64,000 bases of DNA from assembly GCF_014207635.1 (NCBI RefSeq), contig NZ_JACHIE010000007.1, positions 62,001 through 126,000 on the forward strand. Direction: 5' to 3'. The stretch is from Acetobacter lovaniensis. GTDB taxonomy: Bacteria; Pseudomonadota; Alphaproteobacteria; Acetobacterales; Acetobacteraceae. The translations under genes were made by a program, and so were the position numbers. Numbering within the stretch: position 1 is the first letter of the stretch; the number at the start of each line of letters is the position of its first letter. The notes beneath the pieces were generated by a model. That model had not been told where the DNA came from and searched no databases. It saw only the letters and a list, made by a program, of their open reading frames with translations. Below, piece after piece: positions 41,451 to 44,276 of the stretch.

Positions 41451-41480
41451 GCTGTGTCTGTGGCGGATATCTTTGGCGGT

Positions 41481-42296
41481 TCAGAAATCCGGCAGGGTCT
41501 GGGCCAGCAATCCCCCCTGTCGCAAGGGGGCGAGGCGGCGGGCCAGACCGGTTGCATCGTCCGTTTCCACCATAATGCCGCAGATCGTGGCCTCACCCTC
41601 GGAGGGTTGGAGCCGCTCGCCGGGCATTTTGCGCACAAAGCGGGCAACGGCGGGTTCCTTGGTCATGCCGATCACGCTGTTATAGTCCCCGCACATGCCA
41701 GCATCGGTCTGGAAGGCAGTGCCTGCGGCCAGAATACGGTGGTCTGCGGTGGGGGTGTGGGTATGGGTGCCTACAACAAGGGAGACCCTGCCATCGAGCA
41801 TATGGCCAAAAGCCCATTTTTCGCTGGTGGCTTCGGCATGGATATCCACCACAATGGCATGCACCGTGACCCCCATGCGGTGCTTGCCCAGCAATTCGTT
41901 GGTGCAGCGGAAGGGGTCGTCCAGCGGGTCCATGAACAGCCGCCCCATCACATTGACCACCAGCGCCTTGCGGCCATCGGCCAGCGCCACCACCACACTC
42001 CCCTGCCCCGGCGTTGCCGGGGGATAGTTGAGCGGGCGGATAATGCGGGGTTCGCCATCAATATGGCCGATCAGGTCGCGGCGGTCCCATGCGTGGTTGC
42101 CAAGAGTAATCACATCCACACCGCTTTGCAGCAGGGTTGTGGCAATGGCGGGGGACAGGCCAAAGCCGTGGCTTGCGTTTTCCGCATTGACCACCACAAG
42201 GTCCAGCCCAAGTTGCGTGCGCAGGCCACTCAGGCGGGAAAGAACGCCATCACGCCCGGTGCGGCCGACAATATCGCCCAAAAACAGAATTCTCAC
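41481..42296 (-). CDS. ymdB: YmdB-family metallophosphoesterase (TIGR00282)
   Basis: This 271-residue calcineurin-like phosphoesterase of the YmdB type acts on 2',3'-cyclic nucleotides in Bacillus. Metal-binding motifs are ILFLGDIVGRTGRDG (Asp), NAENASHGFGL, TLGNHAWDRRDL (Asn-His), IVDIHAEATSEKWAFGHMLDGRVSLVVGTHTHTPTAD and the late histidine pairs. The family is widespread; its role in Alphaproteobacteria is unknown. It starts at 42296, 33 bp after the 5-FTHF cyclo-ligase stop, and both run leftward, so they are probably cotranscribed. Confidence 0.93.
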   Translation of the reverse strand: MRILFLGDIVGRTGRDGVLSRLSGLRTQLGLDLVVVNAENASHGFGLSPAIATTLLQSGVDVITLGNHAWDRRDLIGHIDGEPRIIRPLNYPPATPGQGSVVVALADGRKALVVNVMGRLFMDPLDDPFRCTNELLGKHRMGVTVHAIVVDIHAEATSEKWAFGHMLDGRVSLVVGTHTHTPTADHRILAAGTAFQTDAGMCGDYNSVIGMTKEPAVARFVRKMPGERLQPSEGEATICGIMVETDDATGLARRLAPLRQGGLLAQTLPDF

Positions 42297-42329
42297 GCGT
42301 GGGTCTTTCTCACTGTGCAGGGGTGTGGG

Positions 42330-42914
42330 TTAGCCAAAACGAATAACCTCCTTTTCGGTTACAATACAGTTCAGGGGCTGGTCATGGGGGCCACGGGGGA
42401 GGTGCGCCACCTCCTGTGTGGAGGGAGCATAGCCTATGCTGGCGGCATGGGGCAGGGCCGCCAGTGTGCGGTCGTAATAACCACCGCCGTAACCAAGCCG
42501 GTTGCCCCTGCGGTCAAACCCCAGCAGGGGGACCAGCACAAGTGCAGGCTCCATAATCGGGCCATCGGGGTGGTGTGTGCCAAAGCGGCCCGCCAGCATG
42601 GTGGATTCGGGCTGCCACTGGCGAAAAACCAGCGGGGAGCCCCGCGCTGGTGTCTGGGGGAGCACAACGGTTTTACCCGCTTGCGCCAGAGCGTGGCAGA
42701 GCGGGCGCAGGTCCACCTCGTGCGGGAGTGGCCACACGCAGGCAATGGGGCCGGTGCTTGCGCGCAGCAAAGGCTCCAGCCGGTGGATAATTCCCCAATC
42801 CCGCGCATAATCCCGCGTGCGCATGGCTGCAAGGCATTCAACCCGCAGGTTTTTTTTGCGCTGCGCAATATCCGGCGGGTCATTACAGGGGGAAGGAATG
42901 TGCGGAGCCACCAT
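42330..42914 (-). CDS. fau: 5-formyltetrahydrofolate cyclo-ligase
   Basis: This protein of about 194 residues converts 5-formyl-THF to 5,10-methenyl-THF with ATP. Motifs are the N-terminal RKKNLRVECLAAMR, VWPLPHEVDLRPLCHALAQAGKTVVLP and the C-terminal nucleotide/folate segment LVPLLGFDRRGNRLGYGGGYYDRTLA. The start is uncertain: ATG 42914, GTG 42911 and TTG 42932 are all candidates, and all lie at or inside the 3' end of the 6S RNA gene. In many Proteobacteria this gene follows 6S RNA directly and is read through from it. ymdB follows. Confidence 0.92.
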   Translation of the reverse strand: MVAPHIPSPCNDPPDIAQRKKNLRVECLAAMRTRDYARDWGIIHRLEPLLRASTGPIACVWPLPHEVDLRPLCHALAQAGKTVVLPQTPARGSPLVFRQWQPESTMLAGRFGTHHPDGPIMEPALVLVPLLGFDRRGNRLGYGGGYYDRTLAALPHAASIGYAPSTQEVAHLPRGPHDQPLNCIVTEKEVIRFG

Positions 42915-43057
42915 GGACCGTGGGTCTTTCAACCTCCAGGACCTGCTAGTGCAGGTGGGCGCCGGGTAATGTGACCAGGGTCACAACAGAGCCAGCTCCC
43001 TAGGAAGTGCTTATCGGCCCAGGGGATGACTTGCCTCACGCGTCGGGCAGCCCCGCA
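42901..43057 (-). ncRNA. ssrS: 6S RNA
   Basis: Between zapA and the 5-FTHF cyclo-ligase gene, the classical 6S locus, the minus strand folds as 6S RNA. An 11-bp uninterrupted closing stem (with G-U pairs) joins 43046-43056 (GCGGGGCTGCC) to 42902-42912 (GGTGGCTCCGC). Inside are CCCCTGGGCCGATA, much like CCCCUGAGCCGAUA of E. coli 6S, then GGGAGCTGGCTCTG, an apical TGTGAC/GTCACA hairpin, CCCGGCGCCC, and an ACCTGC-ACTA-GCAGGT hairpin in the 3' part of the bubble. The length of about 157 nt is right. It would bind RNA polymerase holoenzyme. The 5' end overlaps the zapA stop and the 3' end the next gene start. Confidence 0.85.
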
Positions 43058-43404
43058 TCTTCTATGTAGGCGCGCTCCATCTCCGCTGCAAGAGATTCCG
43101 CAGTATCGGCCAGATCAGCCAGCCGGGTATTGGTCAGGGCCAGTTCCGCCCGCAGGCGTTCTGCGTCCAGGGCCGCCAGTACCGTGCTCTCTGGCACGCG
43201 GCTGCCTGACAGGTCCTGAATTTCGTCCGCCATCAGCAGTGCGGCCAGTACCAGCACGCGGCTTTCGCCGCTGAATCCCAGATTGCGGACCTGCTGCACA
43301 CGGCGTTCAACCTGATGCGCCATGGCCTGAACGTGGCGTTCCTGCCCGTTTTCGCACCCGACCGTATAGCTGTGACCGTTGATATTGACTGAAACAAGCG
43401 CCAT
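43036..43404 (-). CDS. zapA: Cell division protein ZapA
   Basis: This 122-residue protein promotes FtsZ ring assembly. The N-terminal domain has VSVNINGHSYTVGCENGQERHV and the following helices (MAHQVERRVQQVRNLGFSGESRVLVLAALLMADEIQDL) lead into a C-terminal coiled coil (LRAELALTNTRLADLADTAESLAAEME). It starts at 43404 with GGGAA about 12 bp upstream. Its last seven codons overlap the predicted 5' end of 6S RNA. The upstream coiled-coil gene ends 4 bp before it. Confidence 0.92.
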   Translation of the reverse strand: MALVSVNINGHSYTVGCENGQERHVQAMAHQVERRVQQVRNLGFSGESRVLVLAALLMADEIQDLSGSRVPESTVLAALDAERLRAELALTNTRLADLADTAESLAAEMERAYIEDAGLPDA

Positions 43405-43408
43405 GGGT

Positions 43409-43705
43409 TCAGTTCCCTTCCTCATGCCGGGGCAGGAGCGGGTCGTGGCCGGGTGTGGCCTGGCCTGTCTGGTCCAGAATGTCGCGCACGCGCATGATCA
43501 GCGCATCTATGTTGGCCAGCAGTTCCTCCCGGTTGGTTTCCGGACGGTTCCGTTTTGTCTGCTGCTGCTTATCAAGAGCAAAGGAAATACGCTGCAACGC
43601 ACGGTCCAGCCGGGTAATGGCCTCTTCCGCAGGTCTTGCGCGGGTGTGCATGCTGGCATAGCTGTTGCCCTGGGGTGAGTGCGGCTCCACGTCTTGATCC
43701 TGCAT
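43409..43705 (-). CDS. Small coiled-coil protein upstream of zapA (DUF4164-like)
   Basis: A 98-residue protein if started at MQDQDVEPH (43705), where AAGG-rich sequence lies just upstream. Starts at 43762 or 43801 would overlap the divergent gene. EEAITRLDRALQRISFALDKQQQ and REELLANIDALIMRVRDIL form two amphipathic helices expected to coil. It precedes zapA by 4 bp, the position where Alphaproteobacteria often carry a DUF4164-type gene, suggesting a role beside ZapA in division. The assignment to that family is tentative. Confidence 0.7.
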   Translation of the reverse strand: MQDQDVEPHSPQGNSYASMHTRARPAEEAITRLDRALQRISFALDKQQQTKRNRPETNREELLANIDALIMRVRDILDQTGQATPGHDPLLPRHEEGN

Positions 43706-43760
43706 TCCTTTTCCCTTCTCTTGGGGTAAGGAATCACCTGCAAAAGCGATTGCGTCAAGC

Positions 43761-44276
43761 ATGCTCACGGAAAACAGGCCACTTTTCTCATCTTCTTCCA
43801 CGGGTATCCGCTATGTGTGCGTCCATGACCGTGCTGGTGTGCATGTGGCTTTGCGTGCGGCGGGGCTGGCGGAGTATGGCGGCTGCATTGGCCTGCTCTC
43901 CCCCCCCGGTGCGGTGGCATACATGGGGGTAGGCTGGTGGCATGCCCTGATGAACGACGTCGCAGAATCGGCCCGGCAGGCTTTTGTGCATGTGCTCGAT
44001 TGCGACAATAGTCCTGCAGGTGCGCTCATGGCGTTGCGTTGTGGCCAGCAAACTGCCATTCTGCGCCCGCAAAACCCACAATATGAGACAATCCGGGCCT
44101 TGTATGCACAGGAAAAAGCGGCACTTCTGCCACAACGCCCGCCATCATTTAACCTTATCATGCCGTTAAGTGCCATATCGTCTCTTGTCGGGTATTTCGC
44201 CCACGGTTATTGCCAACACCAGCATCCGGAAAATAATGCGCCGGACACAAGGCAAAAGAAGGACTGTTCCCCATGA
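43761..44276 (+). CDS. Protein of unknown function upstream of fbaB
   Basis: A 171-residue protein with a mixed alpha/beta pattern: VCVHDRAGVHVALRAAGLAEYGGCIGLLSPPGAVAYMGVGWWHALM, then AFVHVLDCDNSPAGALMALRCGQQTAILRPQNPQYETIRALYAQE, and a charged tail. There is no signal peptide or clear catalytic motif. The GLLSPPGAVAYMGVGWW segment looks like a ligand loop. The stop overlaps the fbaB ATG by 4 bp, so the two are coupled. No convincing ribosome-binding site precedes 43761, so the true start may be later. The family is not recognised. Confidence 0.65.
   Translation: MLTENRPLFSSSSTGIRYVCVHDRAGVHVALRAAGLAEYGGCIGLLSPPGAVAYMGVGWWHALMNDVAESARQAFVHVLDCDNSPAGALMALRCGQQTAILRPQNPQYETIRALYAQEKAALLPQRPPSFNLIMPLSAISSLVGYFAHGYCQHQHPENNAPDTRQKKDCSP

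Follow-up and report, generated by a model that had tools for sequence, protein, structure and literature searches.

A 6S RNA gene that overlaps zapA and, most likely, the start of fau in Acetobacter lovaniensis

The stretch of DNA analysed here (hereafter the window: 64,000 nucleotides from Acetobacter lovaniensis) carries on its minus strand, in this order, zapA, a 6S RNA gene (ssrS) and fau, the gene for 5-formyltetrahydrofolate cyclo-ligase (Table 1). 6S RNA is a small regulator of RNA polymerase, and the hallmarks of 6S RNAs generally are binding of the sigma70 holoenzyme, templating of pRNAs and accumulation in stationary phase. ZapA was recognised by PF05164 (59.7 bits, cut-off 23.8) and Fau by the equivalog model TIGR02727 (136.7 bits, cut-off 84.9) together with PF01812 (107.9 bits); when a second fau was looked for across the whole genome, this single match was the only one returned. 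Two other frames lie close by. An ORF of 130 aa (43409–43801, minus strand) immediately precedes zapA, overlaps the listed zapA start and has no match in Pfam or NCBIfam; an open frame of 506 codons on the plus strand (41454–42974), antisense to fau and to a metallophosphoesterase gene, is probably a shadow of the coding bias of the other strand.

Table 1. Features of the zapA–6S RNA–fau locus (window positions; negative numbers in the fau and 3′ arm rows are counted from the 3′ end of the 6S RNA).
Feature	Position	Strand	Remarks
zapA ORF	43036..43425	-	PF05164; start 43404 also possible; last 21 nt inside 6S RNA
Predicted -35 box TTGCAG	43086..43091	-	6S promoter, within zapA
Predicted -10 box TACATA	43063..43068	-	17 nt after -35 box; 6 nt before RNA start
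6S RNA (ssrS)	42901..43056	-	156 nt; RF00013 match and predicted rod
Closing helix, 5′ arm	43046..43056	-	RNA nt 1-11; in this Acetobacter clade also zapA end
zapA stop codon TGA	43036..43038	-	6S nt 19-21
Alternative fau start TTG	42930..42932	-	-32, in 6S RNA, directly adjoining GGAGG; in frame
Most likely fau start AUG	42912..42914	-	-14
Closing helix, 3′ arm	42902..42912	-	-12 to -2; part of fau codons 1-5
Alternative fau start GTG	42909..42911	-	-11, in closing helix; in frame
fau, 5-formyltetrahydrofolate cyclo-ligase	42330..42914	-	Taken from ATG 42914; TIGR02727, PF01812

The RF00013 covariance model matched the minus strand at 43056–42901 with 66.5 bits (gathering cut-off 46.4, E-value 6.3e-11), and the match spans the full model (1–187) without truncation. 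The initial annotation had proposed a 6S RNA gene on this strand at 42901..43057; the covariance search bore out the gene, its strand and its 3′ end, and placed the 5′ end at 43056 rather than 43057. It had also described the RNA as squeezed into about 157 nt, and here it was mistaken. The window 6S RNA is not shortened, because its 156 nt fall within the 154–162 nt spanned by 178 fetched loci of the family, a range that rules out an unusually short 6S RNA; it is a normal member of its RNA family. In the predicted fold (minimum free energy −74.1 kcal/mol), the RNA forms a long rod interrupted by internal loops and closed by a stem. The closing helix comprises 11 bp, formed by 43056–43046 with 42902–42912, and the proposal that this stem is built from the end of zapA and the beginning of fau agrees with the predicted helix. 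Nine of the eleven pairs form in 174–178 of the 178 loci; for the outermost two, the counts are 162 and 161. Some pairs vary on both sides, as at pair 2, which is C-G in 126 loci and T-A in 28.

RF00013 matches were found in 48 of 49 Acetobacter genomes and in 188 of 200 sampled Acetobacteraceae genomes. The comparative sample consists of 178 loci, including that of the window, from about 232 genomes with matches (48 from the genus and 188 from the family, four of them shared), and is weighted towards stronger 6S matches. Profile searches for the neighbouring genes detected fau at 168 of the 178 loci and zapA at 167, leaving ten and eleven loci, respectively, without a detected copy; the gene order zapA–6S–fau, which the initial annotation had called the classical one, was thereby borne out. 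Three family genomes of 99–100% completeness (G172, G144 and G220) gave no 6S match under strict filters and have congeners with one; divergence, loss or an effect of the filters may account for this.

At its 5′ end, the RNA overlaps zapA as had been claimed, the zapA stop codon (43038–43036) lying 21 nt inside the 6S RNA. Among the 167 loci with zapA, the coding sequence ends at +21 relative to the 6S start in 21, at +57 in 11 and between −5 and −10 in 105. The overlap occurs in 32 of 48 Acetobacter loci and nowhere else in the sample, so that we reject it as a general feature: the 32 overlapping loci of the 167 all belong to Acetobacter. In the predicted fold, the middle base of the window’s zapA stop codon, G20 of the 6S RNA, has a C of the 3′ side as its partner. 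This G stands opposite C in 20 of the 21 loci of the +21 group, whereas RNA position 20 and its partner are C and A in 11 of 11 loci of the +57 group and in 116 of the 146 other loci. Gain of the TGA stop codon thus coincides with gain of a new base pair in the RNA.

The promoter of the 6S RNA appears to lie within zapA. The predicted −35 box of the window, TTGCAG, recurs at −35 to −30 from the RNA start in 62 of the 178 loci, with TTGCGG, TTGCCG and similar hexamers in others. Where zapA is in register (118 of the 167 loci), the codon that supplies the first bases of this box has the form xTT in 107 loci; where the overlapping codon encodes Ile it is ATT in 81 of 81 cases, against 134 of 576 Ile codons in the rest of these ORFs, a bias that suggests constraint at the DNA level. 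The codon choice thus supports placement of the 6S promoter in the zapA coding sequence. As for the −10 box, the triplet at −12 to −10 is TAG in 43, TAA in 32 and TAC in 35 of the 167 loci, and in 72 of the 75 loci with TAG or TAA this triplet is the zapA stop codon. In these 72 of 167 loci, a minority, the stop codon of zapA thus forms the first part of the probable −10 box of the 6S promoter. Where zapA overlaps the RNA, the triplet is TAC (31 of 32 loci) or TAT (one). The clade of the window therefore has TAC in place of a stop, so that zapA runs on into the RNA, and in the 32 overlap loci ZapA gains a C-terminal tail encoded by the 5′ side of the 6S RNA. In PMC5756330, promoters of Gluconobacter oxydans are described as lax, with ttGnnn at −35 and nAtnnn at −10 (Tatnnn in abundant transcripts), and the proposed 6S boxes fit the pattern given there. 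A scan with a strict consensus missed the proposed 6S promoter, because the sixth base of its second hexamer had to be T.

At the other end of the locus, the start of the Fau domain falls near 42857, and every in-frame ATG, GTG or TTG that precedes it (42932, 42914 and 42911) lies within the 6S RNA. The claim of the initial annotation that fau starts inside the RNA, at one of these three codons, is supported by the comparative counts given below. Between the zapA stop codon and the fau start lie 121 nt if that start is ATG 42914 and 103 nt if it is TTG 42932. In the predicted fold, the A and U of AUG 42914 lie in an internal loop and its G opens the closing helix. A GGAGG motif, located by eye, sits 18 nt 5′ of this AUG, which has no well-spaced Shine-Dalgarno sequence; spacings of 3–14 nt are given for G. 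oxydans in PMC5756330. Relatives carry GTG or GCG at the −11 position. If AUG 42914 is the start of fau, the 3′ arm of the closing helix also encodes the first Fau residues, MVAPH, and the protein would begin (M)VAPHIPSP. Comparison between loci gives good support for a fau reading frame that begins in the 6S RNA, with AUG 42914 as its most probable first codon.

Across the family, 129 of 168 loci have fau in the frame of position −14 (positions for fau are counted throughout from the 3′ end of the 6S RNA). ATG occupies −14 in 99 of these 129, in eight of the 21 loci with fau in the second frame and in seven of the 18 with fau in the third; thus at 15 of the 114 loci with this ATG, fau is in another frame, and the triplet must be kept for other reasons too. 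Start codons were counted in the 159 loci where the Fau domain begins 0–130 nt from the 6S end, nine others being left out. An in-frame ATG at −14 is present in 96 of these 159; A. tropicalis, A. cerevisiae and A. thailandicus are three of the counted loci with ATG at this position. An in-frame GTG occupies −14 in two loci, and an in-frame TTG in all four of the named Gluconobacter loci that we looked at. Komagataeibacter saccharivorans exemplifies species whose only ATG is downstream: it has ACG at −14 and ATG at +10. At one locus (L047, genome G021), the 6S RNA is one base shorter near its 3′ end, the AUG is out of frame with fau and no canonical start is present; this may reflect a sequencing error or a decaying gene.

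Presence of the −14 start goes with absence of a later one. No ATG, GTG or TTG occurs between the 6S end and the Fau domain in 66 of the 159 loci, and in 63 of these 66 the final 32 nt of the RNA supply such a codon. Among the 96 loci with an in-frame ATG at −14, 59 lack and 37 have such a downstream start, as against seven and 56, respectively, of the 63 loci without it (Fisher’s exact test, kinship ignored, P = 1.2e-10 for 159 loci); counting ATG alone, 79 of the 96 have no other one between RNA end and domain. The association also appears when kinship is taken into account: in 37 independent sister pairs that differ in the −14 ATG, drawn on a single-gene (Fau) tree, a mean of 19.4 pairs show the expected difference in the downstream start and a mean of 0.5 the reverse, the rest being ties; with ATG as the only downstream start considered, the corresponding figures are 15.1 and 1.4. 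On the same tree, the state of the −14 ATG requires 37 Fitch changes, compared with a mean of 49.8 after shuffling, and such frequent changes make it a trait only moderately tied to descent.

Substitution patterns in the fau leader also bear on where translation begins. For the 59 loci with no downstream start, a group that includes the window locus, 16 closest-relative pairs were compared. Between the RNA end and the domain, 41 of 92 changed codons are synonymous in the fau frame, and the two shifted frames give 5 of 82 and 8 of 82; over +1 to +16 alone, the counts are 15 of 51 in frame versus 2 of 47 and 4 of 47. Since +1 to +16 evolves as coding sequence, translation seems to enter from inside the RNA in this group. 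For the 37 loci that have both the −14 ATG and a downstream start, ten pairs yielded no coding signal over +1 to +16 (7 of 31 in frame versus 7 of 33 and 4 of 32) and one over +16 to +31 (15 of 24 versus 2 of 23 and 2 of 22). The −14 ATG is therefore probably not used everywhere, and in many loci of this two-start group translation probably enters at the downstream codon. The control on non-coding spacers comprised three pairs only.

Beyond the family, other families of Alphaproteobacteria supplied about 195 loci, of which we considered the best 68 (28 + 40, strongest matches first); the 6S RNAs of these 68 share the RNA family of the window and are of similar size. A fau gene was detectable at 60 of these 68, and 51 had zapA upstream and fau downstream in the fetched stretch. 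An in-frame ATG occurs at −14 in one of the 60 (L314) and at −13 in two (L292 and L325). The arrangement, present in 96 of 159 loci within Acetobacteraceae and rare outside, is thus mainly a feature of the window’s own family, with rare parallels; the in-frame ATGs of L325, L292 and L314 are possibly of independent origin. In L325, no later start precedes the estimated start of the domain among the starts listed.

Escherichia coli K-12 has zapA, ssrS and fau (ygfA) in the same order and orientation as the window, and the annotated gaps there are 41 nt between zapA and ssrS and 75 nt between ssrS and fau; in the window, by contrast, both genes overlap the 6S RNA and the start of fau appears to lie inside the closing helix. 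According to PMC7641849 (citing Chae 2011; Kim and Lee 2004), a dicistronic ssrS-fau transcript is processed to 6S RNA in E. coli, and PMC9130861 records that ygfA adjoins 6S RNA in alpha- and gammaproteobacteria. No report of a fau start inside 6S RNA appeared in the titles or abstract openings among the matches listed in a literature search, and an earlier description may exist; the main text of PMC5756330 contains none of the terms ‘6S RNA’, ‘ssrS’, ‘zapA’ or ‘cyclo-ligase’.

The shared architecture—a 6S RNA, its overlaps and a fau start within the RNA—is well supported by the comparative data. We consider it likely that the locus holds an ordinary 6S RNA gene fused at both ends with its neighbours, whose closing stem doubles as the initiation region of fau. 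Structured leaders that mask a start codon are familiar from translational riboswitches and RNA thermometers. The predicted situation here would be alike in principle, with a stable helix closing over an initiation region; unlike in those systems, the masking structure in the window is itself an independent regulatory RNA.

Read-through from the promoter of the 6S RNA (or of zapA) would be the simplest source of the fau message. In a transcript of that kind, the folded 6S RNA would cover the initiation region of fau with its closed helix, maturation of the 6S RNA by trimming would sever the fau message within codon 5, and translation from AUG 42914 would need the helix to be open. One transcript could then act as 6S RNA or as fau message, and the two uses would compete: because the closing stem is also the initiation region, a read-through transcript could not easily be both. 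The suggestion of the initial annotation that 6S folding and fau translation may exclude one another would fit the anatomy of the locus and the predicted folding. In predictions for the 96 loci, the mean unpaired probability over −14 to −1 is 0.216 for the intact RNA and 0.383 without its first 25 nt, and the region is less open in the intact RNA in 86 of the 96 sequences; adding 60 nt of fau leaves the predicted fold of the window unchanged. A scan of the same strand between 6S and fau detected no terminator-like site, which is weak evidence because shuffled sequence yields only 0.3 such sites on average. We tentatively entertain, at somewhat less than even chances, the further possibility that the 6S precursor of Acetobacteraceae is bifunctional, with each read-through molecule becoming either a regulator of RNA polymerase (helix closed, 3′ end trimmed) or a Fau message (helix opened and the adjacent AUG used). 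The suggested coupling between RNA polymerase regulation and folate metabolism would be compatible with the gene order and with the single fau in the genome. The start codon itself may go back to a substitution within one of the RNA's internal loops and have been exchanged repeatedly with downstream starts.

Competition would not arise if the overlap were an accident of compact gene order and the fau message came from a separate transcript, internal or leaderless, without the 5′ arm of the 6S RNA. This would suit an AUG without a well-spaced Shine-Dalgarno sequence and the greater predicted openness of the region once the first 25 nt are removed (the 86 of 96 sequences above), and leaderless mRNAs are known in alphaproteobacteria (PMC5756330; PMC4117421). 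Against it, no promoter-like site for fau was found inside the 6S RNA on this strand (42750–43250 scanned), a weak objection since the strict pattern used also misses the 6S promoter, and the 61 leaderless mRNAs reported for G. oxydans are a small share of its genes (PMC5756330). We regard such a separate transcript as rather unlikely.

Initiation of Fau downstream of the 6S RNA at some non-canonical codon, such as ATT at +1 or +31, with the AUG at −14 kept only as RNA sequence, seems improbable to us. The 15 loci that keep the ATG out of the fau frame and the 37 that keep it beside a downstream start would suit such an arrangement, but the 59-locus group, unlike the two-start group, evolves like coding sequence over +1 to +16, canonical downstream starts appear in 56 of the 63 loci without the ATG, and the in-frame GTG (two loci) and TTG (four named Gluconobacter) at −14 are start codons in the same place. 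That the 6S match is a pseudogene or chance hit in plain sequence between zapA and fau can be dismissed almost entirely, nothing having been found in its favour and given a score well above the cut-off (66.5 against 46.4 bits), RF00013 matches in nearly all Acetobacter and other Acetobacteraceae genomes searched and a conserved closing helix.

To our knowledge, 6S RNA and fau are conserved neighbours across proteobacteria, an association for which we know of no accepted reason. Our likely reading, of a closing stem that doubles as the fau initiation region, suggests an RNA structure that dictates the first residues of an enzyme, and the promoter comparisons suggest a zapA stop codon that forms part of a promoter. 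Gene callers that bar overlap with non-coding RNAs could misplace fau starts in these genomes. If the precursor is indeed bifunctional, Fau output would report inversely on 6S maturation. A family with a shared helix, found beside sister lineages in which fau starts downstream, offers a natural comparison for asking whether maturation of 6S RNA controls Fau.
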